Positions 4,265-22,752 of a stretch of DNA of 64,000 nt are shown here, piece by piece. Source of the stretch: Phycisphaerae bacterium (GTDB taxonomy: Bacteria; Planctomycetota; Phycisphaerae; UBA1845); NCBI GenBank assembly GCA_028289375.1, contig JANQQK010000038.1, positions 1 through 64,000 of the forward strand. The letters are read 5' to 3'. A program made the position numbers and the translations under genes. A model generated the notes under the pieces. The model searched no databases. It saw only the letters and a list, made by a program, of their open reading frames with translations, and was not told the DNA's origin. Positions within the stretch are counted from its first letter, which is position 1. Each line of letters opens with the position of its first letter.

Positions 4265-4687
4265 CACGCTGTTTGGTACCAAAACTCAGCTGAGGTGAGA
4301 AGGCCGTCGACTTCGGCAGTTGGCGATCCAAGTCCAACTGCATACTTGATCCTTGTCTTGAGCGTATTCCAGATCATCGTGGACCACTCGCAGTCAATCC
4401 AATGAAGGAATATTTCGCGCGTCCGGTGTTTTCGGCCAGACGCTTGACTCATCCGGCCGGGCGGTGTGCACGGACATTCTGGAGTGTTGTGCGCGAGTTC
4501 TCGCCACCTCATGACGTGGCCCCGCCCTTGGTCCACCTCTTAAGTTAGTTTTCGTAGTGCTGGAGCTCACCCGAGCGACTTCAGGCAACTTCGGCAAACG
4601 CCAGTGGACGCAATGCCCATCAACTCAACCGCGCGCAACTCCTTGCGATACTTGAGGATGTGCTTGAAAAGGCGGGACTTACGGAAC
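4265..4687. other. Gene-free stretch
   Basis: Spacer between the giant surface protein and tRNA-Thr. The tail of the integrase reading frame enters it from the right (stop at 4620). No other convincing coding sequence, repeat or terminator was seen. Confidence 0.5.
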
Positions 4688-6137
4688 AGCCACCGGTGGG
4701 ACTCGAACCCGCAACCTGCGGTTTACAAAACCGCTGCTCTGCCAATTGAGCTACGGTGGCATTGTGGCCGTCAGTGGGCGACACGGTGCGACCCGCCCCG
4801 CACGTAACCGACTGCGACGGTAGGACTTTAGCACAGCTTCCCACCCTTGGCGAGTCCCCATCATTTCCCGAACGTCCGACATCAGCCGACTCCGCACGAC
4901 TGCCTCCGAAATGCCCCGTCTGTACAACACTGGTGCAACACCCTGTCTCGATCTCGTCGACGTCGTACGTTCCTGTGGCACGCATCGAATCCCTGTCCGG
5001 TCCTCGGTCAGACAGGTCGGGCAGCACGCTCGGCGCATTTGCGACGTCGCCGACAGCGCGGTGGGTGTATCTATCCATCGTCAGGCCGATCGTTGAGTGA
5101 CGGGCGAGGATTTGAGCGTCCTTCGGGTGTACGCCGCCACTCGCTAGGTTCGTGACGAATGTATGCCGCAGTGCGTGAAAGTCAGCGTATCTGCCTGCGC
5201 TGTCCACGTACGCAATACCTGCCGCTTCCAAGTCAGCCTTTAGCATTCGCGCGCCTCGGTCTTTCCAGAATCGAAACGGATGCACATCGTCACCCAACTC
5301 ACGGACCAACTCGGTCACTGTCTTCGCTGTTGCCAGTCGCAGGGGAAGCTCGCAGGTTTGACGGTTCTTCGTATATGCCGCTCCCACCGTCACCATTGGC
5401 TGGTCGGAATCGAAGCGGAACGACACGGGCGTCAATGTGCGACACTCCTCGGCCCGCAAGCCCGTCTCGCAAACGAGTTGATACAGAATCGTTCGCACCG
5501 GTCCATCGAGACCGTAACGCCGGGGCTGTGTTCGAGTGACAGTGAGTAGTGATCGAAGTTCATCAGCCGTGAGCGATCGGCGGTCATGTCGACGATCGGT
5601 GCGCGTGTTGAACCCCGACAAGTGAGCGATCGGACTTTCTGGCGCTCGGCGATCCGCAACCATCCATTTTGCAAATTGCTTTATGGCTTGCAGGTAGAAA
5701 TTCGCTGTCTGTGCTGACTTGCCCCCATCGCGCAGTGTCTTCAAGAACCCCTGAACACGCGACGCGGAGATGTCAGACCAAGCGATAAACCTGCACCCAT
5801 TAACGATCGCCGTCGCTCGTGTCTTGAGCAGCCCGGCATGTTTCGGCGCATTCCCCTTTCCTCGGAGCGCTGCGTGCCAGTCCTCGATATGATCCGCGAG
5901 TGGTCGGCTTAGTTCCTTCTCGAACGGGTTGACCAGTCCTGCCGATTCCTGATGCGCTCGATGGATTGCGTCAGACAGAGCGAGTTGGGCAGATTTGCGA
6001 TCCTGCGTCTTGAGCGAGATTCGGACACTTTCGCCCGTACGTGGATCGCGAAACGATCCCCACCAGACGGATGATTTCTTGCGAGTCTTTCGCCCGTGCT
6101 TGTCGCTCCGCGTGACCGTTGGTCGATACAGTCCCAT
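4620..6137 (-). CDS. Tyrosine-type site-specific integrase
   Basis: Phage-type tyrosine recombinase that would integrate and excise the element at tRNA-Thr. 505 residues. There is an N-terminal arm-binding/SAM-like region (about 1-185) and a catalytic domain (about 190-370) showing the first Arg in ETGLRAEE, HALRHT for the H-x-x-R motif, then LARHST and the Tyr nucleophile in MDRYTH. The residues after about 380 are a low-complexity tail. Its frame runs through the attL repeat and the antisense of tRNA-Thr (translation TVAQLAEQRFCKPQ) and stops in chromosomal DNA at 4620. The last residues are therefore supplied by the insertion site. The start ATG at 6137 is one base from the stop of the XRE gene, so the two are probably co-transcribed. 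Confidence 0.9.
   Translation of the reverse strand: MGLYRPTVTRSDKHGRKTRKKSSVWWGSFRDPRTGESVRISLKTQDRKSAQLALSDAIHRAHQESAGLVNPFEKELSRPLADHIEDWHAALRGKGNAPKHAGLLKTRATAIVNGCRFIAWSDISASRVQGFLKTLRDGGKSAQTANFYLQAIKQFAKWMVADRRAPESPIAHLSGFNTRTDRRHDRRSLTADELRSLLTVTRTQPRRYGLDGPVRTILYQLVCETGLRAEECRTLTPVSFRFDSDQPMVTVGAAYTKNRQTCELPLRLATAKTVTELVRELGDDVHPFRFWKDRGARMLKADLEAAGIAYVDSAGRYADFHALRHTFVTNLASGGVHPKDAQILARHSTIGLTMDRYTHRAVGDVANAPSVLPDLSDRGPDRDSMRATGTYDVDEIETGCCTSVVQTGHFGGSRAESADVGRSGNDGDSPRVGSCAKVLPSQSVTCGAGRTVSPTDGHNATVAQLAEQRFCKPQVAGSSPTGGCSVSPAFSSTSSSIARSCARLS
4688..4760 (-). tRNA. tRNA-Thr(TGT), integration target
   Basis: On the minus strand a 73-nt cloverleaf can be drawn. The acceptor stem is GCCACCG/CGGTGGC, the D stem GCTC/GAGC, and the anticodon stem GCGGT/ACCGC with loop TTTGTAA, so the anticodon is TGT. 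A T arm with TTCGAGT loop is present, with T as discriminator. One T-stem pair is a C.A mismatch. CCA is not encoded. The 5' half (4715-4760) is duplicated at 22938-22983, which marks this gene as the attachment site of the element to its right. The intact gene is thus a hybrid of a chromosomal 3' half and an element-borne 5' half. Confidence 0.9.
4715..4855. repeat. Left attachment repeat (attL-like)
   Basis: Matches 22938-23078 at 135 of 141 positions counted by eye. It begins at the CCTGCGG next to the tRNA anticodon arm, runs through the 5' half of tRNA-Thr and about 95 bp of its upstream flank, and ends at GGCGAGT. The six mismatches indicate that the two copies came from different sources (element and chromosome). 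It is not a recent simple duplication. Confidence 0.9.
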
Positions 6138-6138
6138 T

Positions 6139-6357
6139 TCATCGCCTCTTTCGTTTGGTCAGCTCAAGGTCGAGCACATTGGCCAGTTTCGTCAGCGTCG
6201 TCAGCGTCACGTCGGCGTCGTCATTCACGAGTGCATGCAAGCTGGCGTAGCCGACGCCACTCTCACGCGAGAGCGCGAATATCGACTTGCCGGATGCGTC
6301 AATCGCTCGAATCAGTTGGCTACGAATGTCGATTCGATTCATCGTTCGTCGTCCCAT
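6139..6357 (-). CDS. XRE-family HTH regulator
   Basis: Small DNA-binding protein of 72 residues. A lambda-Cro/C1 type helix-turn-helix is visible over residues about 24-64 (IFALSRESGVGYASLHALVN, then LTTLTKLANVL). A start at the internal ATG at 6342 (MNRIDIRS) is equally possible; neither start has a strong Shine-Dalgarno sequence. It sits directly upstream of the integrase, so it is a plausible repressor of integrase or excision. A 12-bp palindrome (GCCGATATCGGC) lies 20 bp upstream. Confidence 0.8.
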   Translation of the reverse strand: MGRRTMNRIDIRSQLIRAIDASGKSIFALSRESGVGYASLHALVNDDADVTLTTLTKLANVLDLELTKRKRR

Positions 6358-6376
6358 GTCATGAGGATATCAAATT

Positions 6377-6388
6377 GCCGATATCGGC
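6377..6388. promoter_or_regulatory. Candidate operator palindrome
   Basis: Perfect 12-bp palindrome GCCGATATCGGC in the gap between the excisionase stop (6390) and the XRE gene start. A second GATATC occurs 10 bp nearer the gene. It is in the right place for autoregulation by the XRE protein; binding is inferred. Confidence 0.4.
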
Positions 6389-6389
6389 G

Positions 6390-6629
6390 TCAAGTAGTTC
6401 GGTCGAGCTGGTCCACCCATTCGCGGATGTCCGACAGCCGCCACCGCACGCCGGTCTTGCCGATGCGGACGCACGCGGGTAACTCGCCGTCGGCGTGCAT
6501 TCTCTCGACGGTCCGCTTGCTGACGGACAGGATCGCGGCCACAGCCGCCGCGTCGATTAATAACGGGTCCAGTCGCCCTGTTGGCCGTTGATTGCCGTTC
6601 ATCGGCTGCATTCCGTTTGTGTTTTGCAT
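6390..6629 (-). CDS. Excisionase-like HTH protein
   Basis: 79-residue protein with a MerR/AlpA-type winged helix-turn-helix at residues about 25-75 (LIDAAAVAAILSVSKRTVER, MHADGELPACVRIG, RWRLSDIREWV). This layout is typical of helix-turn-helix type 17 excisionases. The ATG at 6629 was chosen because AAGGAG lies 9 bases upstream; the longer open frame overlaps the ATPase gene and lacks such a site. Position next to the integrase and XRE gene supports a role in recombination directionality. Its partner could instead be the second HTH protein at 8569. Confidence 0.8.
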   Translation of the reverse strand: MQNTNGMQPMNGNQRPTGRLDPLLIDAAAVAAILSVSKRTVERMHADGELPACVRIGKTGVRWRLSDIREWVDQLDRTT

Positions 6630-6733
6630 TCGTTGCTGCTCCTTCGTCCCCAAACCCGTTCCAAGTACACCGGGGCGTCGCCGTCGGTCGGGGGGTTCAA
6701 CGGCCACAGAGATTGACCCCTGCCCCTCGTCCA

Positions 6734-8263
6734 TCACGCAGACCACGCCGACAAGTGATCGCAGTCCGTGCCATCGTTGCCAGTCTCTGCCAATAGATTT
6801 GATTGGCATGGACTGTGTTCCTGTGGCACGGACTGGGGCAATCCCCAATATGTCACCATCGACTTGCCGAACCCCTCGCGGACGGTCTCGACTCCGATGG
6901 CAGCCTTGGCCCGCCACAGTGTCCGCTCCGAAATGCCCTGTCGCGCGGCCAGCTTCTTGATTTCATGCGATTCCACCCGGCCCAGCGCCAGCACATCACG
7001 CAGGAATTCGACAGCCTCACTTTGCGCGGTCTTCGCCTCGTGGCCCTGTTGTGTCGCCGCAATCATCGCGTCAGCCGTCGTGTTCACAGCATCCGCCGAC
7101 CACTGGACAACCCCGTCGATGATCCTGAATGCAAGCCCGGCTTGCTCGGTGGTGATGTTGTTCTTCGCTTGGAGCATCAGCCGTCGGGTGTCGTCGTCGG
7201 GGTCTCGTCCGATGACCCAGCACATTCGCGCTGCCGCTGTGTACGCAACACTCCCGATGATCTGTTGGGCGGCATCCAGCCCTTGGCCCTTGCGAAAGTG
7301 CGTCACGGCAATGACGGCCACGCGGTGACGCTCTGCTAATGCCGCCAACGGCCCTAGGACAGCCCGCAGTTCAGAGTTCCTGTGATCGTCAACCTTTCCC
7401 AAGTAAGCGGTGATGGGGTCGACGATCAGCAGCGTAGCCCGCTTGTCGACGATGACTCGCTCAATCTCTTGCAGGTGTGCACCGAGATTCACCCACCCAT
7501 CACGCCCGCGATCATCCTTGAGACCGGTCACGATCTCGATGCGCGAGGTGTCAGCCTGAGCAGCCACCAAGCGGGGGACGATCGTGTCGCTCGGACCATC
7601 CTCGGCGTTCATGATGACGACGTTGCCCGCCTCACGGTTTGGTGAACCATCCGGCCATGCGATGCCGCGTGATACGCGCGATGCGACGTCGATCGTGACA
7701 AAGCTCTTTCCGAGACCGCCGTGTCCGGCCAGCAAGGTCAACTTGCCTTGCGGAATTCGATTAGGCCAAAGCCATACGATGGCTTCCGGCTCCACCGCCG
7801 ATGCGTTGACTGTGACGATGCGCTGCCCATATTGCTTTGTCTGGAATCGGTCGAGTGATGACCGCAAGGCCTCGATTGCGTCTGAGGGGTCGGAGACGTT
7901 GGCGACCGCGTCCGTTGCACTCGACAGTGCGTCGCCCAAACAACGGCGCTGATACGCTTGCCACACTACGCCGACGTATTCCGCCACGCGATTGACCGCT
8001 CCGACGGTTTCGCAGCAGTCGAAAAGGTGCTTCTGGCCCCCGCACGATTCGATAGCGTCTCCGAGGTGGTCCCGAACGACGATTAGGTCGTGGCGGTTCG
8101 TACAGGTTTGCAATGACGCCCACAACTGCCGATTCCGGTCGTCTGTGAACGCGTCGGTGGGCAGGTGCCTTGCTGCGCCAAAGGCACCGACATTGTCACC
8201 ATCGTCGAGCAGCACGCACCCGATGACGGCCATTTCGGCCTCGACGTCAACGAGGTTCGCCAT
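6734..8263 (-). CDS. RepA/DnaB-like AAA ATPase
   Basis: 509 residues. The N-terminal ~100 residues (EAEMAVIGCVLLDD, DRNRQLWASL) resemble the DnaB helicase N-terminal domain. From about 155 a RecA-fold ATPase of the RepA/AAA_25 class shows Walker A GHGGLGKSF and Walker B LLIVDPITAYLG, then VAVIAVTHFRKG. The C-terminal region has a helix-turn-helix-like stretch (ESHEIKKLAARQGISERTLW). Such proteins act as plasmid or phage replicative helicases or primase-helicases, so the element may replicate when excised. ATG at 8263 with AAGGTG close upstream; it overlaps the stop of the preceding small gene. Confidence 0.85.
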   Translation of the reverse strand: MANLVDVEAEMAVIGCVLLDDGDNVGAFGAARHLPTDAFTDDRNRQLWASLQTCTNRHDLIVVRDHLGDAIESCGGQKHLFDCCETVGAVNRVAEYVGVVWQAYQRRCLGDALSSATDAVANVSDPSDAIEALRSSLDRFQTKQYGQRIVTVNASAVEPEAIVWLWPNRIPQGKLTLLAGHGGLGKSFVTIDVASRVSRGIAWPDGSPNREAGNVVIMNAEDGPSDTIVPRLVAAQADTSRIEIVTGLKDDRGRDGWVNLGAHLQEIERVIVDKRATLLIVDPITAYLGKVDDHRNSELRAVLGPLAALAERHRVAVIAVTHFRKGQGLDAAQQIIGSVAYTAAARMCWVIGRDPDDDTRRLMLQAKNNITTEQAGLAFRIIDGVVQWSADAVNTTADAMIAATQQGHEAKTAQSEAVEFLRDVLALGRVESHEIKKLAARQGISERTLWRAKAAIGVETVREGFGKSMVTYWGLPQSVPQEHSPCQSNLLAETGNDGTDCDHLSAWSA

Positions 8264-8447
8264 TGGTCACCTTGGGCATCTCTGCCCGCGTCAGCCAAGG
8301 CCGGAAGAACCGCGCCTTGTTCATGTCGCCGTCCCATCTGGCGCGTTCGGCGGCTATTCGCACACGTTCGTCAACATGACTCGTCCCGCTTCGGGATTGA
8401 CGAATTCGTTGATCGGAAAGTCGATTGATGTTAGAATCAGCTGTCAT
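8247..8447 (-). CDS. Small hypothetical protein
   Basis: 66 residues, charged, with no recognised domain. The ATG at 8447 has GGAG eight bases upstream, and its stop overlaps the start of the ATPase gene. Both features favour a real, translationally coupled gene. The C-terminal half (RIAAERARWDGDMNKARFF) looks helical. Function unknown; it could be a partner of the ATPase. Confidence 0.5.
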   Translation of the reverse strand: MTADSNINRLSDQRIRQSRSGTSHVDERVRIAAERARWDGDMNKARFFRPWLTRAEMPKVTNGEPR

Positions 8448-8568
8448 AGAGCACGCTCCGAGTGCTTCGCCGTCGTCGCCTGCACAGCTCACGACGGCTT
8501 TTCTTTTGACCTTCGAGCGTTGGCCCAATGCCAACTGGCTCTTAGGGTTTTGCCTTATCGAATGAGGA

Positions 8569-8754
8569 CTACTCGTCGGCGGAGCCGCGACGAATTAGCT
8601 CCGCAATGTCACTTGCTCGCCATCGAACGGAACGTCCAAGGCGTATTGGCTGAGGAAGCTGGCCCGTCGAAGTCCACTTCCAAACCGCTCGCACCGATAT
8701 TGAAAGACGTTTAGCAACAGCTCTGACGTCCAACAGTTGATCAGGTTCACTCAC
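8569..8754 (-). CDS. AlpA/excisionase-like HTH protein
   Basis: 61 residues, nearly all one winged helix-turn-helix (LLDVRAVAKRLSISVRAVWK, then LPQPIRLGRSVRWRASDI). It starts with GTG at 8754 preceded by AGGAG at a 7-base gap. Same family type as the protein at 6390-6629 but a different sequence. It lies downstream of the iteron-like repeats at 8852-8983 and is a candidate regulator of the replication genes or the excisionase. Confidence 0.8.
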   Translation of the reverse strand: MSEPDQLLDVRAVAKRLSISVRAVWKWTSTGQLPQPIRLGRSVRWRASDIAELIRRGSADE

Positions 8755-8851
8755 TTGATCGCTCCTCTAATTACTTGTGAGCGCACTAAACTGCCCACAC
8801 CCCAACTATACGTCACTCCAATGCACTGAAACGGGGGCAGCTGCCGAATCG

Positions 8852-8911
8852 TCGCCAGTTGGCACGAGTTGTCGTCAGTCGGTGCGAGTTGCCGTCAATT
8901 GCGACGAGTTT
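8852..8911. repeat. Three tandem 20-bp iteron-like repeats
   Basis: Head-to-tail units start at 8852, 8872 and 8892. They share a pattern of T/C-CG-YCA-rich start and GCGAGTT-like end: the first two match at 16 of 20 positions, the third more weakly. The array lies in the gene-poor gap upstream of the HTH and ATPase genes, where plasmid replication iterons or an operator array would sit. Confidence 0.55.
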
Positions 8912-8983
8912 CTTGGCTGGGATGGACTGAATAAGCGTGAGTAGATGCGAGTTTCATGGCCAGAATGGGCTGGAAAGGCGTGA
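8905..8983. repeat. Pair of 36-bp direct repeats
   Basis: Copies at 8905-8940 and 8948-8983 match at 28 of 36 positions, beginning CGAGTTTC and ending GGCGTGA or AGCGTGA. They directly follow the 20-bp repeats, giving about 130 bp of repetitive DNA between two minus-strand genes. Candidate replication origin or regulatory region of the element. Confidence 0.5.
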
Positions 8984-9005
8984 ATCGTTCACAGACCCTT
9001 GAAAT

Positions 9006-9728
9006 TCACTCGTCACAGAGCGAAGGGAATTCGTCACAGGAGAACCTGTGAGACTCGCGATTCAAGGACTGGAATCTGACCCGATTCGACTTCATCAGCC
9101 CGCGTAGTTTCTTGCTCGACATGCCCGATCCAATGCGCCTAGCCGCCTCCTTGAGAGTCATTACTGGTGATGGATTCGGCAAGTCGCAGACACTCACCGA
9201 CTGCGGCTCTTCCTTAAGTCCAACACCTGTGGGCGTGATAGAGCGTCGTTCCACTTCCGCTTGTCCGCGCGACGTGACGGACCAATAACTCTCCGCTATT
9301 GGCTCATGTGCCCCTGAAATCCCCGACCAGACATGTTCGCGGTCCACGAAAAGGTGGATAGAGCGCGTCATTCCGAGTGCGCCGAACGCATAGCTGTTGA
9401 TCAATTCGCGTGATTCACATGGCTCTCGACGTTGCGATGTCTCTAGGATTCGACCATCGCCAAGTTGCCAGCGTCCCCAAACGTCCCTGCAACAGCAGCG
9501 TTCGATCAGCTCTGCCGTTTCGAGTGCCCGAAGCTGGGCACTGATCATAGTGCCGCTCTGCGCGAGGCCGACGAATTCTCCGAGCAGAAGGTATACAGGA
9601 ACGGGCGATACCGCCTCCGGGCATGCCGGTTGGTTGTTTGGCCAGTTCGGCTGCGGATATCCTTGGTATTCCCAGCGATAAACCGCGTCGAGCAACTCAT
9701 CTCGAAACTCAGCCATTTGGATCGACAT
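9006..9728 (-). CDS. Hypothetical element protein with C-terminal HTH-like region
   Basis: 240 residues from ATG 9728 (MSIQMAEF); an ATG at 9716 is an alternative. The middle has a Cys-rich patch (ERCCCRDVW). The last 60 residues (VMTLKEAARRIGSGMSSKKL) resemble a small DNA-binding helix-turn-helix as in excisionases. The family is not recognised. It lies between the repeat region and a zinc-ribbon membrane protein on the same strand. Confidence 0.6.
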   Translation of the reverse strand: MSIQMAEFRDELLDAVYRWEYQGYPQPNWPNNQPACPEAVSPVPVYLLLGEFVGLAQSGTMISAQLRALETAELIERCCCRDVWGRWQLGDGRILETSQRREPCESRELINSYAFGALGMTRSIHLFVDREHVWSGISGAHEPIAESYWSVTSRGQAEVERRSITPTGVGLKEEPQSVSVCDLPNPSPVMTLKEAARRIGSGMSSKKLRGLMKSNRVRFQSLNRESHRFSCDEFPSLCDE

Positions 9729-9811
9729 CCGCCAGATTGTACCGCAGCATTGCACGACCATGCAACACGGTGCACAGGACTGCGGCGGCAGACCGCCTGC
9801 AGGCACGGCGA

Positions 9812-11089
9812 TTAGCTTGGACGGTGTTCATCGGCGTTGGGAGCCGTGTAGTGTCCCGGCTCGGTCAGCCTCAGCGAACACACAGGACACACGCGGTATG
9901 TTCCGTACGGCTTGCGCGATTGCCGAAAATCTGCGACCCATACTGCGACTACTGAGGCAATGCCGAAGACAGCAAGGCAGGGGAAGATACAGGCCGACAT
10001 TGCGCCCATGACCGTACATGCCGCATACATCGCGTGACACCACGCGGGAAACGGAGGTGCCCCCCTCTTTGCAGCCTCGGCGTCATACAGGTTTTTGGTC
10101 GCCGCGACTTCGTGCTTGCAGTTTGGACAGTAGATCGGTTCATGGGCGAGTCTGTGTTCAAGTTTTGCAAGCGCAGCAAGTCGCTCTTTTTCAGCCGCGT
10201 ACTTTGGCCACATCAGCTTCCACCAAAGCACCGCACCAATGCCGAGGGCTACCAAACCCACGACCTCGCGAAACCCAATCTGCTCATTCCGCGCAATCGT
10301 AACCCTCGGTGCAGCGGCAATTCGCCGGGACTCAGCGGCCACGAATTCGCCGTCCCGTAACTCGCCAAGATAGCCATCGCGGTAAGCCCCGGGGTGTGTG
10401 CGAGAGAATGCAGCGGACATGCTTGCCTCTTGAGCCTCAAGAGTGGAATAGAGGCTAACCGTGTCAAATCCTTCTCGCCGCGCAACGTCAACGGCTGCGT
10501 TCGACCTCGTCTCAACGGGCGTGCTCAACGAGAATGACTCAATCAAAACGTCGCCCTGAACAGTCCCATTGAGCATCTCGAATCGGTCAATGACGGCATA
10601 AGCAGGTGCACCGTCAGACACGACGGCAACGCCCACGAGTATTACGCCGACCGCGAGAATGGTGAGAAATCCGCGTGAGTACTTAATACCGATCGCATCG
10701 AGCAAGCGACGGTTTAGCGGGGGTGCGCAAACAGCGCCGCAGACAATGACTCCAATTCCCAAAACGATCGAGGGGCCAGCGACCAGTGATTGAAGCCCGA
10801 CGGCACCAAGTACAAGAGCGATCGCCCAAGCGAGCTGCGGGTGCGATTCGCTCTCCGCCGATGGCTTGTTGCTCGAATCGTCGGATGGTCTCTTAGCACT
10901 GCTCGACTCTGCCGTAGTTTGCTTTTGGGGCGTCGCGCGCCTCAACCTCGACGATTCGTCTGGCTCTGCACGCACGTGCACAGCGCAATGAGGGCACTCG
11001 ACCGTATCGGCCCGTTGAGATTCGTGGATATGGAAGCACTTTCCGCAGGTTGGGCAAGTCCGTCGAATTGTGTTGGGTGAGGGTGACAA
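9812..11089 (-). CDS. Zinc-ribbon membrane protein
   Basis: 425 residues from TTG 11089, chosen because GGAG lies 9 bases upstream and the sequence further upstream is a hairpin-rich leader. The N-terminus has a zinc ribbon (CPTCGKCF ... CPHC) typical of planctomycete and myxobacterial MJ0042-type proteins, followed by a Ser/Lys-rich linker. Two hydrophobic segment pairs follow (about 85-160), then a soluble domain, another membrane helix (VVGLVALGIGAVLWW), a second zinc ribbon (CPNC) and two C-terminal helices with a third C-x-x-C (CPVC). Function unknown. It lies inside the mobile element. Confidence 0.65.
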   Translation of the reverse strand: MSPSPNTIRRTCPTCGKCFHIHESQRADTVECPHCAVHVRAEPDESSRLRRATPQKQTTAESSSAKRPSDDSSNKPSAESESHPQLAWAIALVLGAVGLQSLVAGPSIVLGIGVIVCGAVCAPPLNRRLLDAIGIKYSRGFLTILAVGVILVGVAVVSDGAPAYAVIDRFEMLNGTVQGDVLIESFSLSTPVETRSNAAVDVARREGFDTVSLYSTLEAQEASMSAAFSRTHPGAYRDGYLGELRDGEFVAAESRRIAAAPRVTIARNEQIGFREVVGLVALGIGAVLWWKLMWPKYAAEKERLAALAKLEHRLAHEPIYCPNCKHEVAATKNLYDAEAAKRGAPPFPAWCHAMYAACTVMGAMSACIFPCLAVFGIASVVAVWVADFRQSRKPYGTYRVCPVCSLRLTEPGHYTAPNADEHRPS

Positions 11090-11417
11090 CAGTCGATTCT
11101 CCGCTGAATCAGTTTGAAACACGCCAAGGTCGAACCAACGTGCGCACGAAAAAGGGGAGCCGCCGAAGTCGGTCCCCGTGCGCAGGCCTACGACAGCCCG
11201 GTACCAGAGACGCCCCGACGGACTCCCGTTTCGGGAGTCCGCCCAACGCATCCGTCTGGTACCGTTTGACGTGTCGTAGTTTGCGCACGGCCAGGATGCT
11301 TGGTCAGACCAAGATTCGATTTGTGTTAGATCGCTACGTCATTTGTTTTCCATCGTCACGATGCTCAAGACTGCTCGCCCACGGAGCAACCGATACGCGA
11401 CTGAACGAGCTGCCGTC
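11090..11417. other. Gene-free leader with large nested inverted repeat
   Basis: Spacer between the small zinc-binding gene (stop 11418) and the zinc-ribbon membrane gene. Its main content is the 111-nt nested inverted repeat at 11178-11288. No coding sequence is convincing. Confidence 0.6.
11178..11288. repeat. 111-nt nested inverted repeat
   Basis: Four nested stems, from outside in: GTGCGCA/TGCGCAC, CTACGACA/TGTCGTAG, CGGTACCAGA/TCTGGTACCG, and GGACTCCCG/CGGGAGTCC with a TTT loop. Short asymmetric bulges separate the stems. Folded on either strand this is a single long hairpin. It could be a structured RNA, a cruciform or replication signal, or a small non-autonomous element. Confidence 0.75.
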
Positions 11418-11669
11418 TCATGGAATCTCCAAGCCCGTCGCACGCATTTCAGCATCCCATCCAGGTGGCGGTTGTGCAACCGTAATGCTCACGTTGAGCA
11501 CCTTGCCCGGTAGCTGGCTTCCACAATATTCGCACGGAGACAACTCTGCCTCATTCCATGGTGCACCCTCGACCTCAATGTGAACTTGAACGCGGTCCAT
11601 ACACATTGCACAAGGGCCAACACTGCCAATCAGACTTTCAAGAGCCTCGATTCGTCGCCCGATGCTCAT
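11418..11669 (-). CDS. Small two-CxxC protein
   Basis: 83 residues with CAMC and CEYC pairs that could bind one zinc. ATG at 11669 is preceded by GGAGGAG at a 4-base gap. Start and stop overlap the upstream gene in an ATGA junction, so the two genes are co-translated. The N-terminus (SIGRRIEALESLIGS) is helical. Function unknown. Confidence 0.75.
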   Translation of the reverse strand: MSIGRRIEALESLIGSVGPCAMCMDRVQVHIEVEGAPWNEAELSPCEYCGSQLPGKVLNVSITVAQPPPGWDAEMRATGLEIP

Positions 11670-11989
11670 GTCGCTCCTCCAGACCGCTCTGACACAGCAG
11701 CTTCCAATGCCTCGATGCGATCGAGCGTGTCTGCGGGCACTGGCGTACCGATGAGTCGATTGAGAATCTCCCGTGCTGCCGACACATCGCCGCCCTTGGC
11801 GGACTCGATCATCGCCCGAGCGATTCCCTCGACATCGTCTGGCCCGACAGCTCGTAAGAGCGCGGACCGCAACTCCGCGACGCGCTTCGCATGTGGATTC
11901 CCCGGTCCTCCCCGGTTCCCCTTCGCGAATCGCCCGTTTGCGTCCCGATCAGCACCGTTTCCACCGTTTGGTGACGGTCTCTCGCTCAT
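11666..11989 (-). CDS. DUF5681-like phage-associated protein
   Basis: 107 residues. The N-terminal DRDANGRFAKGNRGGPGNP is the signature of DUF5681-type proteins that often lie near phage terminase or packaging genes. The remainder is helical (LRSALLRAVGPDDVEGIARA). It overlaps the next gene by an ATGA junction. No terminase large subunit was found nearby, so a packaging role is only a possibility. Confidence 0.7.
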   Translation of the reverse strand: MSERPSPNGGNGADRDANGRFAKGNRGGPGNPHAKRVAELRSALLRAVGPDDVEGIARAMIESAKGGDVSAAREILNRLIGTPVPADTLDRIEALEAAVSERSGGAT

Positions 11990-12981
11990 GCCAGTATTCT
12001 ATCGTAACGGTCGCCCCCGATCGAGGTGAACGACAACAGCACTGCCAAGTCGAGCTGTTGATTGGGTTTGTTTGATGGAATCTATGCCCATTGGACTATC
12101 GTGCCGACTGGCCACATACTTGTCTCGTCGGTCACCGTCGGCTTGGAGATCGCTCAGCGTGACAAACTTGATCAAGACCAATTCGCGAATGGCTGAGTCC
12201 TCAATCTACGCACTTCCAGCACTGCGCAACTGCCACGCCACTTGGCAAGAGCGCATCCGGCCAGCAATCTCAAGTATCACTCCGTGTTTTTCCAAGTATG
12301 ACGAGTGGTTGTCGTGGCACGTTCCGAGCGTTGACGAGATCATAAGACGCAGAAGCTCAACCTAGTACTTCGGTTTAGTTGAATCGCTGCACAGAACTCT
12401 GCACTCATTTCACGGACTTCCCAATAGCTCGGTACTTGCTTTGTGTGTGTTCTCACTTCCGAACCTCTTTTCATTGGCGGTTGCCGGTGGTACGAATCCC
12501 AGCGAACTGTGCGGGCGAATCGTGTTGTCCTCACATCCTCACGAACAAAGGAACGATGCACCGTTCAAGGTTGTCTGGTTAGCTGAATGAAGGTAGTCAT
12601 CGACTACCGAGGCCGGTGCGCTATCACAAGAACCACCATAAATCCAGAAGCGCCTTTGCGAAACTCCAGAAGTAGCGTATCACGTGTGGCCAAGTCCACC
12701 TGTGAATGTGGAGCATGAGGCATCACATCGTGGAGTAACGCCTGATCGTCAATGATGATAAAGTCGCCGTACGGAACACCACTGCTCAAGCTGATGAAGA
12801 CGACTCGCCTGACGCAAAGTTGTGATTAGCGGTAGCGTCAACGTTGGTGTATCGCGGAATACCGTGAACAAAGTAACGCCTGAGGGAATTGATCACGAAA
12901 AAGGTGACGCGGGGTACCGCTTCTTCCGCGATACGTCCGGCAAGGCCGCCTCCGGCGGCCCCGGCGCGGCTCCGCCGCGCC
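11990..12981. other. About 1 kb without a convincing gene
   Basis: Between the DUF5681-like gene and the 3' end of DGR target 1. Several short open frames exist. The best is on the minus strand at 12604-12789 (61 codons, containing VPYGDFIIIDDQALLHD), which has a protein-like composition but no clear start or family; it may be a gene remnant. The right end holds the target-associated hairpins. Confidence 0.4.
12944..12981. repeat. Tandem hairpins after DGR target 1
   Basis: Two adjacent inverted repeats: GGCCGCC-TCC-GGCGGCC (12944-12960) and GGCGCGGC-TCC-GCCGCGCC (12963-12981). The second abuts the TAG stop of target 1. Nearly the same pair follows target 2 at 15692-15729. In the Bordetella phage DGR, a hairpin just downstream of the variable repeat promotes retrohoming, so this is the likely counterpart; it could also act as a terminator. 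Confidence 0.75.
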
Positions 12982-13917
12982 CTATCCGGACTCGACCAGA
13001 GCACCAGCAGGACCTCGGGCAAGGCGGAAGCCAAGAAAGAAGCTGCGAACCGACGGGACGACCGCGTAACGGCACGCAGCACGGACGTCCCTCGCGTCAT
13101 CGACCCACGCGCCGCCGCGAATCACACGATCCGCGCCCAACTCAGTCGTTTCGGATGGATCAGCTACCGCATGTTCATCGTAGTCCCGAAGTCCGTCTGC
13201 ACACCACTCGTCCACGTTGCCGAGCATATCGTGCAGACCCCAGGCGTTCGGCTGCTTCGCACCAACAGGATGCGTTCGATTGTCGCTGTTGCCAACCCAC
13301 CAAGCGATCTCATCAAGCACGGACGACGCTTCCGAATCGGACTTCCATCCGCCACCATACGTCGCCGTCTCCGTGCCAGCCCGGCAGGCGTACTCCCATT
13401 CCGCCTCAAGTGGTAAACGCCAACCGTCGGATTTCAGCACATCCGCCAACCGCTCCAGGAACAACTGACAGTCCTCCCAAGACACTCTCTCCACGGGACG
13501 TGTGGTGTCCTGATCATCGGGGGTCGCGTCGCCCTGGAAATGTGATGGATTCTTCCCGTCCATCACCGCCGACCAGAGACCTTGCGTACAAGGAACCTCC
13601 CCCAACCAGAACCCATGCGTTATCGTCACAAGGTGACGAGGACCCTCATCTTCAAAGCGACCGGTCTCGTCCGACGGAGTTCCCATCCAGAACCGACCCG
13701 GAGGAATCCAACGAAGACGGTGACGAACATCACCAACCTCAAACCCTGCCCAGGGGCCATACTCATCCTCCCCCCACGCGGATGCCCAGGTTGGTGGCAG
13801 CCCGGTGGCGAGAGGGTGGTTGGCGCGCGTCTCACTGTTCAGCGTGGTATCCATGGCAGGTGATTGGTACGGACGCCGGCGAGCCTTCGCAACCGCATCC
13901 GCAGGCCCTACCAGCAC
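12982..13917 (-). CDS. DGR target protein 1, FGE/C-type-lectin fold
   Basis: 311 residues, a formylglycine-generating-enzyme (SUMF1/EgtB/PvdO) family domain over about residues 55-305. Visible family motifs are WIPPGRFWMG, PRHLVTI, GFWLGEVPCTQGLW, PVERVSWEDC, WRLPLEAEWEYACRAGT, WGLHDMLGNVDEWC and RVIRGGAW. The diversified segment (VR1) covers residues about 260-301 and ends with GFRLAR near the C-terminus, as in known DGR targets. There is no signal peptide or lipobox, so it is cytoplasmic. GTG 13917 has AAGGA seven bases upstream; ATG 13854 is an alternative. The two active-site cysteines of true FGE are not evident, so binding rather than catalysis is likely. Confidence 0.9.
   Translation of the reverse strand: MLVGPADAVAKARRRPYQSPAMDTTLNSETRANHPLATGLPPTWASAWGEDEYGPWAGFEVGDVRHRLRWIPPGRFWMGTPSDETGRFEDEGPRHLVTITHGFWLGEVPCTQGLWSAVMDGKNPSHFQGDATPDDQDTTRPVERVSWEDCQLFLERLADVLKSDGWRLPLEAEWEYACRAGTETATYGGGWKSDSEASSVLDEIAWWVGNSDNRTHPVGAKQPNAWGLHDMLGNVDEWCADGLRDYDEHAVADPSETTELGADRVIRGGAWVDDARDVRAACRYAVVPSVRSFFLGFRLARGPAGALVESG
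13014..13139 (-). repeat. DGR variable repeat VR1
   Basis: 126-bp copy of the template repeat (14006-14131) forming the 3' end of target 1. On the coding strand it differs from the template at 15 of the 24 template adenines and at only one non-adenine position. Fixed residues such as RGGAW and GFRLAR are conserved, while template Asn codons now read Val, Asp, Cys, Tyr, Ser or Phe. This is the mark of adenine-specific mutagenic retrohoming. Confidence 0.95.
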
Positions 13918-14005
13918 GCCGGTATCCTTCGTCGTTTCGCCGCTCGCACGAACGGGCGGACGCGATGAGGGTCGGGTCCGGTGCGGCCATCCAGCCGCGC
14001 CAGCG

Positions 14006-14131
14006 CTCGGGCAAGGCGGAAGCCAAGAAAGTTGTTGCGATTCGACGGGTCGTTCGCGTTGCGGTTCGCAGCACGGACGTTCCTCGCGTCATTGTTCCAC
14101 GCGCCGCCGCGAATCACACGATCCGCGCCCA
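14006..14131 (-). repeat. DGR template repeat TR
   Basis: 126-bp template between the reverse transcriptase (stop 14171) and target 1. Translated in the target frame it reads RVIRGGAWNNDARNVRAANR and continues with further Asn codons: nine Asn codons, seven AAC and two AAT, which can mutate to many residues without stop codons. Its 24 adenines are where VR1 and VR2 differ. Past its 3' end (plus-strand coordinates below 14006) the sequence diverges from the VR flanks, as expected for the IMH/IMH* distinction. Confidence 0.95.
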
Positions 14132-14170
14132 GGTGACCCTCACCGAGCACCATATTGTACGTCCCGATAT

Positions 14171-15178
14171 TCAGATGTCACATAGCTCTGTTGGAGTCAA
14201 CTCGCGCCGTCGCCACGCGACCACATCGGCGTGGGCGGTGACAGCGAGCGCGGCACCGACTCCAGACTGAAGCTGTCGCGCATCGATCAGCCCCAGTCGA
14301 TAGGCCGTTTCCCAACGCCGGCGGGCGCGGCGGTATCGACTGCGCCGACGGCGGGACAGCCCCAGGTGATTCGGAAAGACACGGAATCCCAGGAACGACA
14401 GTCCGGCGGTGCTTCGCTGGATCGGTGCGTTGTCATGCAGTTCGAGCCTCAGCGTCCGCGGCGTCCAATCCATGACAGCATCTCTGCTACGCTTGGCCTC
14501 GTCGCGCGTCCGCGTCCACCAGACCACGTCATCCATGTACCGGACCATACCAGGGACTTTGAGCCCCTCAAGCAGAAACCGGTCCAAGTCACCAAGGTAG
14601 GCATTGGCGAAACTCTGTGAAGTAAGGGCACCGATCGGCAGCCCGCGGCCGCGGCTGGTCTCGTGCGAATGGATAATGCGGGCGCAAAGACGAAGTAAGC
14701 CGGGCCCTTTGAATCTGCGCGTGAGAACGGCGATCAGCACCTCATGGCTGACTGACGCGAAAAACCGCCGCACGTCGATCTTGACGTACCATGGAAAACG
14801 GCGTGCATGAGCCTGAGCTCGTCGAACGGCGTTGAGACTGCCGCGCCCCGTTCGACAGGCGTAGGTGTCATCGACGAGCGAGCGGTCGAGTACTGGACCA
14901 ACATGTCTCATGAGAGCGTGATGAAGTACCCGTTCTCTAAAGCACGGCGCGTGAATAATGCGTGGCTTCGGGTCGAAAACACGAAACGACCGCATCGATC
15001 CGACGGACACGACTTCCGTCAGTATCGCGCGTCGCAGGGCGGTGAGTTCCGAGTCGAGTCGCGCTTCAAACGCGCAAACTGCAGGTCGGGTCCGCTTCCC
15101 GCGCGCCGCGCGCCAGAATGCATAAAGCAGGTTGTTCATCGCAGCGACGTCTTCCAGATTGGCGGCACTTCGTTTCAC
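14171..15178 (-). CDS. DGR reverse transcriptase
   Basis: 335 residues. RNA-directed DNA polymerase that would copy the template repeat into error-prone cDNA. Palm motifs in order: VKIDVRRFFASVS (first catalytic Asp), LPIGALTSQSFANAYL with the SQ signature of DGR and group-II-like RTs, RYMDDVVWW (catalytic YMDD) and LSFLGFRVF. There is no maturase/X or endonuclease domain, and the length fits DGR RTs. GTG 15178 is six bases after the stop of the HRDC gene; an internal ATG at codon 14 is a possible start. Confidence 0.95.
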   Translation of the reverse strand: MKRSAANLEDVAAMNNLLYAFWRAARGKRTRPAVCAFEARLDSELTALRRAILTEVVSVGSMRSFRVFDPKPRIIHAPCFRERVLHHALMRHVGPVLDRSLVDDTYACRTGRGSLNAVRRAQAHARRFPWYVKIDVRRFFASVSHEVLIAVLTRRFKGPGLLRLCARIIHSHETSRGRGLPIGALTSQSFANAYLGDLDRFLLEGLKVPGMVRYMDDVVWWTRTRDEAKRSRDAVMDWTPRTLRLELHDNAPIQRSTAGLSFLGFRVFPNHLGLSRRRRSRYRRARRRWETAYRLGLIDARQLQSGVGAALAVTAHADVVAWRRRELTPTELCDI

Positions 15179-15184
15179 CAGCGA

Positions 15185-15679
15185 CTAAAGCACTTCATCG
15201 GGCGGTTGTGCAAAGAGATTTTCCGGGGGTACTTGGTGAGACTCCGTATCGTTCAGCGCTTCGAGGAAGCGTTGGCCATACTTCGTAATCCGCGCAGGGC
15301 CCACGCCGTCGATCTCACGGAGTTGGTCTGTGTTTCGGACTTGTCGTCTGACCATTGTTGCGAGCTGTTCGTTCGTGAAAAGTGTATACGGCGGTACGCC
15401 CTCCTGCTCGGAAATCTCCTTTCGCAGTGCGCGTAGCCTGGCGTACACCTCAAAATCGGCAGGGGACAGAATCTGACGATAGTCGATGCGGCCCTTGACT
15501 GAGGGAGGCGTCGAATTCGTATCAAGGTAGGTTACGCAAATAGCCCAGGCGCTGCGCTCACCATCGGCGATAAAATGCCGGTCTATCGTGGCGATGCGGT
15601 GGCTCGCCAGGAATCGGTTCAATTCTGTTTCGGCTGGTTGGCTGGAGAGAATGGGGACAATCGCAAAGTGCAATCTCAT
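15185..15679 (-). CDS. HRDC-domain DGR accessory protein
   Basis: 164 residues from ATG 15679 (GGAG seven bases upstream). The C-terminal half is an HRDC domain (residues about 75-150: FEVYARLRALRKEISEQEGV, PPYTLFTNEQLATM, REIDGVGPARITKYGQRFLE), a nucleic-acid-binding module of RecQ helicases and RNase D. The N-terminal half (MRLHFAIVPI, HFIADGERSAWAICVTYL) has no recognised family. Located between target 2 and the RT in the position usually held by Avd. HRDC proteins have been reported as alternative DGR accessory factors, so a role in cDNA priming or strand handling is likely. Confidence 0.85.
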   Translation of the reverse strand: MRLHFAIVPILSSQPAETELNRFLASHRIATIDRHFIADGERSAWAICVTYLDTNSTPPSVKGRIDYRQILSPADFEVYARLRALRKEISEQEGVPPYTLFTNEQLATMVRRQVRNTDQLREIDGVGPARITKYGQRFLEALNDTESHQVPPENLFAQPPDEVL

Positions 15680-15691
15680 GAGACATCTCCG

Positions 15692-15729
15692 GGCCGCCTC
15701 CGGCGGCCCCGGCGCGGCTCCGCCGCGCT
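15692..15729. repeat. Tandem hairpins after DGR target 2
   Basis: GGCCGCC-TCC-GGCGGCC (15692-15708) and GGCGCGGC-TCC-GCCGCGCT (15711-15729, one end pair weak). They sit immediately after the TAG stop of target 2 and match the pair behind target 1. The whole 3' flank, about 80 bp including the last codons, is shared by both targets. Likely a DGR target-recognition structure. Confidence 0.75.
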
Positions 15730-18390
15730 CTACCCGGACTCGACCGGAGCACCAGCAGGACCTCGGGCAAGGCGGAAGCCAAGAACGAGGGAGCGAAACG
15801 ACGGGACGAACGCGAGGCGGCTCGCAGCACGGACGAACCCCGCGACACCGAGCCACGCGCCGCCGCGAAACACACGAACCGCGCCGAGCTCAGTCGATCC
15901 GGATGGATCGGCAACCGCACGCTTATCGTATTCTCGGAGCCCATCAGCACACCATTCGTCCACGTTGCCGAGCATGTCGTGCAGACCCCAATCATTCGGC
16001 CGTTTCGCACCAACAGGCCACGTTCGACCTTCGCTGTTGCCAGACCACCAAGCGATCTCATCGAGCACGGACGACGCTTCCGAATCCGACTTCCAACCGC
16101 CCCCATACGTCGCCGTCTGCGTGCCGGCGCGGCATGCGTATTCCCACTCCGCCTCAGTTGGCAAGCGCCAACCGTCGGCATTCAGCGCATCAGCCAGCCG
16201 ACCCAGAAAGCGCTGGCAGTCCTCCCACGATACCTGTTCCACAGGACGCACAGCATCCTGATCGTCCCGGGTCTTGTCGTTCTGGAGATACGATGGATTC
16301 TCTCCGCCCATCACCGCCGACCAGAGACCTTGCGTACACGGAACCTCTCCCAACCAGAACCCACGCGTGATCGTCACAAGGTGACGAGGGCCTTCGCGCT
16401 CCGTGCGATCGGTCTCGTCCAACGGAGATCCCATCCAGAACCGACCCGGGGGAATCCAACGAAGACGGTGACGAACATCACCAACCTCAATCTCGCACCA
16501 TAGGCCAGCCTCGTCCCGCCCCATGGCGCGGGCCCAGCTGGGGCGGTTTTCGGGGAGGCGTTCCCCACGTTGTTCTACTTGGATGCTCAATTTCTTCGTA
16601 CGATCCGTCGCGAGATGGATCGGCTTCTTGATGGGCACAAGGGGAATGCTCGCTCGGTCATCCTCCAACTCAATGGGGGGGGCCGTCCGATCACGGCCGG
16701 TCCAGATTTGGACCAAGGGGGCCCTCAACCAAAGCGTGGCTACGCGGCTTCGGGGGCCGCGTCCCTCCTGCACCGCGCCAGGTGGCGCGACGCAAAACCC
16801 ATCGGCATCCTGGTAGAGTTCCACCGTCCGCGGTCGTCCGCTTCGTCCGCGTGTAACGACGGACCAGTCAATGCCGGTTGGTGCCTCTTCTATAGATACG
16901 TCCTCATGGGCGGCAGCCCACAATGCCGCCAGCGCTTCGCGCGTCTTCTGGTTTTTCCAAAGGCTACCGGGAAGGCGCTTTACGAATTTGCGGATCCAGA
17001 CCGAGATGGCGGGTTTCTCTTGCGCTAGACTTTCCCTATCGAGTGCACGGGCCAGCGAACGAAACTGATCCACGGCCATGTTGATCTCGCTTTCGCGGAG
17101 AAACTGGGCGACATTGCCTCCGTCTTCAGCCCAAAGTGCTAGCACTTCTTCCAACCATATCCAGGCCTGTAGAGGACTGTGCCAGTTACGCATGAGCCCA
17201 ACGACGTATTCCGCATCTGGATGCGATGCAAAATCGGGCCAACGCATCCGCGCGGCTGAGCGTTTCAACACTGCCGTGCCGGACAAGTCACCCATCACAT
17301 CGGCATGGTGCCACACATCGTGTTCCAGGCCGACGCCGGCACGGTGCTGCGGCAGCAGTGTTCGGACTGCTCTCAGAAAACCAGGCTCTATCCTGGTGGC
17401 GAAGGAAAGCAACGTCAGTATCCCGTCAAGCGTTTTGCGATCCCCCTGCCGGTCTGCCCCCACAACCGCCACCGGGCTGGAACTCCGATCCCAAAGCCGC
17501 GCATGCCACAGCCTGGCGTTGGATGTTGACCAGCGATCGGCGGGGGCGGGGACCAGTGCGGCTCGTTCGACCCACTCGCGCTTCAGCCTCGCACCCAGCG
17601 ATTGCCAGGCTCTTGCTTCTGATCCTCCGGCATACGCACCGAGATCGCTTAGTGCCAGAACGGCCGGAGCATTGACGATTTCGCTCGCCAGCAACTGAAC
17701 GGCGCCAGGCGACAGGCCGTGGGGAAGGTAACGAGCGTCGATCGTACCACCCAAACAGCGGCCAACTCGTTCGAGCAAATCCTTCTGATCCCGCCAAAAT
17801 GGCATGAGACGGTCACTGCGATCAACCAGCACAATAGTCTGCGTGGACCATCCGCGGCGCGGTCGCCGCGGGATTCGATGAAGCACTTCCATCCGGCTCA
17901 CGCGGCGGATGGCCGCGCGGACGTCCACATTGCCGCGTCCACGGCGTCGCATGGCCTTTTGCAGGTACGGTTCAAGCCTTGACCAGGACGTTAACGGCGG
18001 TTTGCGTGGTTGCGGATCCCTGGATCCCGGTCGAACCAGTTCATCCGGTGCCGTCGGCGTGACACCTGCCAGAAACTCATCGTCATCGCCCTCGTCATCC
18101 ATGCCAAACGGGTGGAAATTGATTTCCACCGGCATCAAGAACGGTACCGGTTTAAGTTCAGGCCGTTCCGTCGGGACTTCTTCGGCTGCAGGGGTGGCGT
18201 CGACAAAATCTTTCGGGGTGCTTGCACGCACTTCCGGCTCGCGTCTCGGCGATCGTCGATAGAGCCCCATCAACTTGGCGCCGTTATCTACCAACTTGGA
18301 GTGTTCGTCGGGATCGACGTCCATGTCATCGACGGCCGCCAGCCATTGTGCCAGATCGGCGAACCCGACTTTGCTTTTGGGCGGTGTCAT
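15730..18390 (-). CDS. DGR target protein 2: vWA-like plus FGE-fold receptor
   Basis: 886 residues. An acidic, Pro-rich N-terminus (1-130) is followed by a region beginning RRGWSTQTIVLVDRSDRLMP (about 180-330) that looks like a von Willebrand A domain with a degenerate metal site. A long helical region follows (about 330-520), then a beta-rich linker. The formylglycine-generating-enzyme/C-type-lectin-fold domain spans about 625-880 (WIPPGRFWMGS, GFWLGEVPCTQGLW, WRLPTEAEWEYACRAGT, GLHDMLGNVDEWC). VR2 covers residues about 835-876. The start overlaps the MoxR stop (ATGA). No signal peptide: cytoplasmic. Known systems pair MoxR ATPases with vWA proteins, so this is probably the diversified recognition partner of that ATPase. 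Confidence 0.88.
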   Translation of the reverse strand: MTPPKSKVGFADLAQWLAAVDDMDVDPDEHSKLVDNGAKLMGLYRRSPRREPEVRASTPKDFVDATPAAEEVPTERPELKPVPFLMPVEINFHPFGMDDEGDDDEFLAGVTPTAPDELVRPGSRDPQPRKPPLTSWSRLEPYLQKAMRRRGRGNVDVRAAIRRVSRMEVLHRIPRRPRRGWSTQTIVLVDRSDRLMPFWRDQKDLLERVGRCLGGTIDARYLPHGLSPGAVQLLASEIVNAPAVLALSDLGAYAGGSEARAWQSLGARLKREWVERAALVPAPADRWSTSNARLWHARLWDRSSSPVAVVGADRQGDRKTLDGILTLLSFATRIEPGFLRAVRTLLPQHRAGVGLEHDVWHHADVMGDLSGTAVLKRSAARMRWPDFASHPDAEYVVGLMRNWHSPLQAWIWLEEVLALWAEDGGNVAQFLRESEINMAVDQFRSLARALDRESLAQEKPAISVWIRKFVKRLPGSLWKNQKTREALAALWAAAHEDVSIEEAPTGIDWSVVTRGRSGRPRTVELYQDADGFCVAPPGAVQEGRGPRSRVATLWLRAPLVQIWTGRDRTAPPIELEDDRASIPLVPIKKPIHLATDRTKKLSIQVEQRGERLPENRPSWARAMGRDEAGLWCEIEVGDVRHRLRWIPPGRFWMGSPLDETDRTEREGPRHLVTITRGFWLGEVPCTQGLWSAVMGGENPSYLQNDKTRDDQDAVRPVEQVSWEDCQRFLGRLADALNADGWRLPTEAEWEYACRAGTQTATYGGGWKSDSEASSVLDEIAWWSGNSEGRTWPVGAKRPNDWGLHDMLGNVDEWCADGLREYDKRAVADPSGSTELGAVRVFRGGAWLGVAGFVRAASRLAFVPSFRSLVLGFRLARGPAGAPVESG
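15762..15887 (-). repeat. DGR variable repeat VR2
   Basis: 126-bp homologue of the template in target 2. It differs from TR at 22 of 24 coding-strand adenines and at one other position. Encoded variable residues are mostly hydrophobic or small (Leu, Gly, Val, Phe, Ser), unlike the more polar VR1. It is more heavily diversified than VR1. Confidence 0.95.
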
Positions 18391-19394: not shown

Positions 19395-19408
19395 ACGAAC
19401 AATTACCT

Positions 19409-20650: not shown

Positions 20651-20750
20651 GGCGGGTTCCTGATGCAGCCGTTTATCGAATGACGAACAGGCCCAATCTA
20701 GGCTTCCGACTTCTGTTGATCAAGTCGTCGCCATGACACCTCAAACAGGT

Positions 20751-20813
20751 CACGGCAACTACCTGCCCAGACGTGGCAATTACTCGCGACACCGGGGCAA
20801 TTGCCTGTAAGAT
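20751..20813. promoter_or_regulatory. Three direct repeats at exact 21-bp spacing
   Basis: Units begin at 20751, 20772 and 20793, each carrying GGCAAYTRC. The third contains a perfect 10-bp palindrome GGCAATTGCC (20796-20805). A 21-bp period is two helical turns, so a regulator would bind the same DNA face. The array lies 100-160 bp upstream of the first gene of the MoxR/DGR operon, a natural place for its operator. Confidence 0.55.
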
Positions 20814-20915
20814 CTTTATTTTCAATGGGTTAAGTGGCCCTCGCTTAGTGGGTGGCGTACACTGTTATTGTTCGGTGAGTCAGCCGTACCGCGCTGCGCG
20901 AAGCCGGACGAATTC

Positions 20916-21046: not shown

Positions 21047-21076
21047 TGGTCAACAAACCATGCAGGATGTGCAAGT

Positions 21077-22631: not shown

Positions 22632-22752
22632 GCGCCGCGCCTCCTTACCTCGAGAAACGGTGGACGCTGGGGAGGAGAACTACGACTCAGCCAATGCGAC
22701 GGAGTGTTCTCTACTACCTGACAAAACCGGCCGATCACCCTTACGTGCGGTA

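Follow-up and report, generated by a model that had tools for sequence, protein, structure and literature searches.

The window, that is, the whole 64,000-nucleotide stretch analysed (positions 1 to 64,000 of contig JANQQK010000038.1 of a Phycisphaerae bacterium), contains an integrated element of ~18 kb at 4620–23078. A 141-bp direct repeat (95.7%) at 4715–4855 and 22938–23078, the first copy of which overlaps tRNA-Thr (4688–4760), brackets a phage-type integrase (4620–6137) and a DnaB/AAA_25 protein (6734–8263). A further direct repeat of 849 bp (83.9%) lies in sulfatase-modifying-factor-like genes at 12944–13789 and 15692–16537; the stretch 15730–18390 carries FGE-sulfatase and is followed by a MoxR-like AAA gene (18387–19394). 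Inside the element, a gene for a zinc-ribbon membrane protein (Pfam FYDLN_acid, 24.0 bits against a cut-off of 23.9) begins 55 nt downstream of a conserved leader RNA. Within the family (51 genomes), this gene was found in its own genome and as three short, weak matches elsewhere, so that the gene itself tells little. The parts of the leader RNA and the gene behind it are as follows.

11145–11318, minus strand: whole conserved leader RNA (covariance models R1, 184.1 bits, and R2, 151.7 bits, this copy belonging to both training sets)
11299–11313, minus strand: P1, the 5' palindrome CTTGGTCTGACCAAG (helix 1; 90.4% of cells paired in the 81-member alignment)
11178–11288, minus strand: long hairpin, the nested inverted repeat (helices 2–6 of the alignment)
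11282–11288/11178–11184, minus strand: P2, in the long hairpin
11273–11279/11188–11194, minus strand: P3, in the long hairpin
11255–11263/11200–11208, minus strand: P4, in the long hairpin
11232–11243/11216–11228, minus strand: apical stem, in the long hairpin
11216–11228, minus strand: a3, the 3' strand of the apical stem, able to pair with its 5' strand (a5) or with t3 (11164–11154)
11185–11199, minus strand: pseudoknot hairpin P5, made of B (GGGC, 11199–11196), A' (GTCGTAG, 11194–11188, which pairs with the P3 5' strand) and B' (GCC, 11187–11185)
11154–11177, minus strand: terminator hairpin t5/t3, GGGGACCG / CGGCTCCCC (helix 8; 83.6% of cells paired)
11149–11153, minus strand: T run of the terminator, read from the sequence
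9812–11089, minus strand: downstream gene for the 425-aa zinc-ribbon membrane protein, with a TTG start (our choice of start) preceded by GGAG

The preliminary description had reported a 111-nt nested inverted repeat of four complementary blocks at 11178–11288, and direct reading of the sequence confirmed it. The outer block consists of GTGCGCA (11178–11184) and TGCGCAC (11282–11288), the second of CTACGACA (11188–11195) and TGTCGTAG (11272–11279), the third of GGTACCAGA (11200–11208) and TCTGGTACC (11255–11263), and the innermost of GGACTCCCG (11220–11228) and CGGGAGTCC (11232–11240), joined by a TTT loop. The judgement that such an arrangement is very unlikely to form by chance also holds: on folding of 11170–11296, energies of −71.4 kcal/mol (z −7.16) for the plus strand and −84.7 kcal/mol (z −8.51) for the minus strand, the best one, were obtained, and none of 200 shuffles folded as well on either strand. 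The repeat had further been said to lack a T-tract on both strands, which is wrong. On the minus strand, it runs directly into a second hairpin, GGGGACCG...CGGCTCCCC (11177–11154), after which TTTTT follows (11153–11149). The conserved unit is longer than 111 nt, extending from ~11318 to 11145 on the minus strand and taking in the 5' palindrome at 11313–11299. This palindrome, CTTGGTCTGACCAAG, which we take to resemble a FadR/GntR-type operator, is identical in four close relatives and is re-paired into a different hairpin in other members.

Searches by DNA similarity gave matches in 2 of 60 genomes and in 3 of 51 genomes of the family, the own genome being counted each time. A pattern of the apical stem, searched in genome contigs, gave two contigs, one of which was the contig of genome G033 already found, and so added one member (L008). 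No match to phage and plasmid records was detected by DNA similarity at E up to 0.1, and none among viral contigs searched with a pattern from the 5' side. The conserved block begins with the palindrome, takes in the hairpin and ends at the T run, and the sequence flanking it differs. With the covariance model R1, further members of this layout turned up, giving 7 genomes out of 114 in the order and 7 out of 392 sampled across the phylum, both counts including the own genome. A second model, R2, was built from 18 members and matched 21 of 114 genomes of the order (10 of the 65 of good quality) and 30 of 392 genomes of the phylum sample (22 of the 217 of good quality), stricter filters being used for these large samples, by which weak members may be missed. 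Up to seven matches occur per genome, and presence is patchy: 6 of 17 genomes in one genus match, and G001, from the same genus as the window genome, is without a match. The own genome, in which the preliminary description had proposed to look for further copies, has the RNA in single copy. When 519 kb comprising 79 loci were scanned with R2, 81 matches with E no higher than 0.1 were obtained, every one at an expected place. These 81 members, all from Planctomycetota, the sole phylum searched with covariance models, include 80 distinct sequences and form 32 clusters at 60% identity.

Two-sided changes were already seen in 11 of 53 pairs when four sequences were compared. In the 18-member alignment, itself made by fitting to the model, paired cells amount to 92.7% and two-sided changes are seen in 49 of the 53 pairs, a level reached by none of 500 shuffles. 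When all 81 members were aligned with P5 included, two-sided changes extended to 55 of 55 pairs with 91.2% of cells paired, and again none of 500 shuffles reached either measure. One of the possibilities raised for the repeat, a structured RNA, is therefore borne out by strong covariation across homologues. Moreover, a few loci at which the neighbour is kept were checked for loss of pairing; most pairs persist there, some through compensatory changes, and a few are broken.

The helix P5 was noticed on reading the alignment, where the stretches flanking the P3 3' strand are complementary, in variants such as GGC/GCC, CCC/GGG, GGT/ACC, GTC/GAC and others; together with P3, it makes an H-type pseudoknot. 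Its best register, found in 72 of 81 members, is B, one nucleotide, seven nucleotides of A', and then B' without a spacer. In this fixed register, 97.1% of 240 cells pair, and the paired cells, the two-sided cells and the covariation score are each reached by 0 of 500 shuffles. Two of the five measures, the number of varying pairs (reached by 444 of 500 shuffles) and of pair types (151 of 500), are not above shuffles because the helix has three pairs only. Since P5 is absent from the R2 search model, its presence serves as an independent check on the matches: of the 63 members not used for training, 58 form all three pairs, compared with an average of 17.5 and a maximum of 28 for shuffled partners. 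With the register left free, a length of at least 4 is attained by the own partner in 80 of 81 members, and as swapped partners also attain it often (~52 of 81), we relied on the fixed-register counts. Collectively, the comparison shows that a putative RNA of defined strand, consisting of P1, P2, P3, P4 with the apical stem, the P3+P5 pseudoknot and the terminator, has been kept through compensatory change at 81 places.

At the 3' end, 79 of the 81 members have at least five T in eight bases. Downstream of the RNA, the neighbouring gene points the same way in 64 members and is antiparallel in 13, with none found in 4; upstream, the corresponding figures are 44, 32 and 5. These orientations come from our own crude hexamer gene caller, some small calls of which are doubtful; it placed the start of the window gene later than the TTG start given above, and several of the 13 antiparallel cases (L078, L096, L061) have a nearer co-oriented start on inspection. 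The placement of the repeat in the leader of the zinc-ribbon gene, as first proposed, thus agrees with what most members show, a gene of the same orientation close behind the RNA. The gaps to the co-oriented genes are short (up to 60 nt in 29 of 64 and up to 117 nt in 46 of 64), which would leave little room for a separate promoter, and a Shine-Dalgarno-like motif is often present before the gene. The genes themselves are diverse, coding for C-type lectin, ankyrin, kelch, collagen, GYF, zinc-ribbon and HARE-HTH proteins and small LuxR-type regulators. The 77 downstream proteins contain 74 Pfam families, of which the 25 listed include none present in more than four members. By a crude hydropathy rule, taken without a background rate, 43 of the 77 are exported or membrane proteins.

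Two motifs recur upstream of P1 on the same strand. GGAG lies at −80 to −35 in 45 of 79 members, as compared with 6, 10 and 12 in three intervals farther upstream and 7 on the antisense strand. ACAA lies in the last 25 nt before P1 in 51 of 79, the other same-strand intervals having 8–11 and the antisense strand 4 at this place and at most 17 elsewhere. From these motifs, the transcript probably starts upstream of P1. Sites resembling a −10 element occur at −140 to −80 in 23 of 79 members on the same strand against 11 on the antisense strand, and at −80 to −20 in 13 on each strand, which is no better than shuffles (12.7). One subfamily (L064, L066, L068 and L069) has TATAAT or TACAAT ~40 nt before P1, and its downstream gene codes for a small LuxR-type regulator. 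In members such as L034, L083, L054 and L078, a Shine-Dalgarno-like GGAG is located ~50 nt upstream of P1, and in some a start codon comes next, with a stop no more than two codons on. Minimal upstream open reading frames of this kind with a Shine-Dalgarno motif and ATG were counted in 5 of 78 members and in none of the controls; with other start codons, they were counted in 17 of 78 and in 0–1 of the controls, many coming from one subfamily, and a looser test without the Shine-Dalgarno motif gave 4 on the same strand and 5 on the antisense strand (79 members). In L034, the minimal reading frame is ATG ATA TAA, which is also that of the lambda bar minigene.

Because t3 resembles a5, both can pair with a3. 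The a3:t3 duplex is specific to each member: its mean energy is −17.9 kcal/mol with the own terminator and −12.9 kcal/mol with terminators of members less than 60% identical, the own one being better in 95% of 81, and a similar earlier comparison gave −17.2 and −12.5 kcal/mol (94%). The only other clearly specific segment pair is the terminator stem t5:t3 itself (−11.5 versus −8.4 kcal/mol, 83%). The P4 3' strand shows a weak own-preference for t5 (−1.37 kcal/mol, 74%), and among 49 segment pairs with upstream and downstream stretches in 80 members, none was comparably specific and no in-cis partner that frees a5 was found. In folding predictions with a pseudoknot-free energy model, whole leaders favoured t5:t3 over a3:t3 in 78 of 81 members, the terminator stem often being weak (mean 3.40 expected pairs; near zero in L008, L078 and L057), and the 3' half alone favoured a3:t3 over t5:t3 in 80 of 81 (10.45 versus 0.09 expected pairs). 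Chimeric 3' halves carrying the terminator of another member still preferred a3:t3 in 69% of 405 combinations, less strongly (5.81 versus 2.07 expected pairs). Column by column, 76.4% of a3:t3 cells are paired, which is above all shuffles and modest; sliding the register by +2 or +3 gives equal or slightly better pairing, and the register differs between members. The leader is thereby predicted to have two mutually exclusive states, as seen in these foldings.

We consider it on balance probable that the RNA is a family of bistable, cis-acting leaders controlling the gene behind them by transcription attenuation. Comparison establishes the structure and its placement; that the RNA regulates, and does so in response to a trigger, is what we infer. 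When the leader is complete, its two halves would pair with each other and a5 would hold a3, leaving t3 free for t5, so that the terminator could form. Were the 5' half unavailable, a3 would capture t3 and the terminator stem would be lost. The first state would stop RNA polymerase and the second would permit read-through; presumably the cell uses this switch, and its state is set when a ligand, protein, ribosome or RNA supplied in trans engages the 5' half or the pseudoknot. What is looked for in an attenuator is found here: a conserved RNA structure before a co-oriented gene (64 co-oriented, 13 antiparallel, 4 with no gene found), an intrinsic terminator that closes the leader, weak in several members, and an alternative pairing that breaks it, found by prediction and in the own-versus-other comparison with modest column-wise support. 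As the a3:t3 helix, too, stops at the T run, it might itself act as a poor terminator. Kept despite differing sequences and unrelated genes, the competition between apical stem and terminator represents a concrete predicted switch.

The main rival reading, which we regard as rather unlikely, is that of a gene for a trans-acting small RNA, whose terminated product of ~170–200 nt would exert its effect at other sites by way of its arms or of a protein bound to it, its position before genes being incidental or operonic. It would account for the T run at the end of 79 of 81 members, for the wide differences among downstream genes, and for some same-genome paralogues having equal ends and different arms, as if for separate partners. 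However, 64 of 77 downstream genes run in the direction of the RNA, with short gaps, the upstream genes doing so in only 44 versus 32, and it is hard to see what purpose the specific a3:t3 competition would serve in a plain small RNA.

The differences among paralogous arms also bear on a more speculative and still less probable reading, an addressable RNA switch, in which the self-complementary arms of each copy would be kept distinct and a matching trans RNA or protein would open that leader alone. The arms (P2, P3, P4 and apical) would then be exchanged or diversified with the ends and the gene constant, and no common metabolite would be involved. In genome G036, two loci have P1 in common and differ once in the terminator and once in ~400 bp downstream, but identity in the intervening arms is 42%, 12 pairs having changed in a compensatory way and 3 being disturbed. 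The ends of a third copy are 98% identical to those of one of these two, and its arms 30%. Where the gene is retained, so is most of the structure: at L046 and L047, the proteins are 90% identical and the RNAs have 17 differences in 186, including three compensatory pairs and three changed pairs with a non-pair. Across members with ends 70–85% identical, arm identity averages 0.52 within a genome (n = 13) versus 0.64 between genomes (n = 61); for ends at least 85% identical, the values are 0.69 (n = 7) versus 0.70 (n = 18), and for ends less than 70% identical, arms are more alike within a genome than between genomes. The two copies in G412 are identical in their RNA. The divergence of paralogous arms is striking in some genomes and follows no general rule; it could be explained by conversion from a paralogue or by selection for distinct addresses.

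Improbable to a greater degree is a protein-bound or RNase III-processed leader, in which a protein would hold the pseudoknot, or RNase III would cut the long stem, and the freed 3' half would refold into a3:t3 and set mRNA stability or translation rather than termination. The long, near-perfect stem, the conserved P3/P5 pseudoknot and the predicted refolding of the 3' half alone in 80 of 81 members are consistent with it; the T run, however, is positioned as for intrinsic termination, and we know of no binding protein or processing site for this RNA. A DNA-level element, folding as a single-strand site for recombination, transfer or replication, is very improbable, since the T run and P5 are confined to a single strand, the neighbouring genes favour one orientation, the counts retain G-U pairs and the own genome has a single copy, against which stand the position of the window copy in an integrated element, that of a G412 copy near the end of a 5.2-kb duplication, and the divergence in G036 that both begins and ends within the RNA. 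The suggestion of a replication origin, packaging or transfer signal likewise fits poorly with members preceding diverse genes, the window copy nonetheless lying inside an integrated element.

Returning to attenuation, we compared the leader with known systems. Searching the whole window against Rfam 15 at gathering scores gave three tRNAs only; 371 nt around the RNA gave only mir-7558 at E up to 5 (24 bits versus 80 needed), and 20 member loci gave no match. The genes controlled by most metabolite riboswitches share a function, and to our knowledge no ligand has been described for the present leader. A riboswitch for a pathway metabolite was rejected, the one-pathway context being absent, with no Pfam family above 4 of 77 among the 25 listed of 74; the trigger may instead be a general signal of these bacteria. 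Like 6S RNA, which is rod-like and of similar length, the leader forms a long hairpin, and it differs in having a pseudoknot, a terminator, up to seven matches per genome, patchy presence and no Rfam match. Type III toxin-antitoxin RNAs also combine a pseudoknot RNA and a terminator upstream of a gene; unlike them, the leader precedes many kinds of genes and is usually one unit, not a repeat array. Integron attC repeats end in RYYYAAC / GTTRRRY, and an attC site was rejected as the ends here, judged by eye on the window copy, are GTGCGCA / TGCGCAC. A MITE or REP-type repeat would be expected in many near-identical copies, and the own genome has one. The earlier idea of a miniature transposon fails on the same single copy and on the duplicated units examined around the RNA, which are larger than the RNA itself (5.2, 3.0 and 0.95 kb, and a 298-bp tandem in L085). 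Neither a reverse transcriptase nor an IS110-type recombinase, looked for with retrons, DGRs and bridge RNAs in mind, appeared in the Pfam results of 10 window proteins or among the 25 listed of the 74 families in the 77 downstream proteins.

Terminator-type riboswitches and attenuators, such as the crcB and pfl motifs given among those in PMC2864571, resemble the leader in being structured, in ending with a terminator and in predicted exclusive pairings; they differ in that the genes here share no function and the competitor is a3 with the terminator 3' strand. According to a passage of the same paper, some known riboswitches likewise have no consistent gene context. Searches of open-licence articles in PMC gave no description of this leader RNA, with Rhodopirellula-1 as a candidate exception. 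Its table row in PMC2864571 (2010) places it in Planctomycetes and Proteobacteria, as ambiguous as an RNA and probably cis-regulatory, and carries no Rfam number; by that row, Planctomycetes and the cis-regulatory rating are common to both. The leader RNA is therefore a well-supported Planctomycetota family that is apparently new, identity with Rhodopirellula-1, as compared by the table row, being possible. It adds a pseudoknotted leader RNA family without an Rfam 15 match to a phylum for which we found the literature on structured RNAs scant.

Several loci carry more than one copy or lie in duplicated DNA. In one genome, the copies at L028 8384–8579, L029 2519–2714 and L080 1501–1698 have near-identical ends and downstream DNA and different, re-paired arms. 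The 5.2-kb duplication of G412 (95.6%; L083 192–5380 and L084 71–5259) has the RNA ~545 bp from its end and contains genes that by eye we named a coupling-protein-like ATPase, a toxin-antitoxin-like pair and a methyltransferase-like gene; beyond it lie different genes, one of them ATP-binding in L084. Two RNAs in a row are found at L027 2388–2910, 367 nt apart, and at L085 1203–1791, in the 298-bp tandem unit at 92%.
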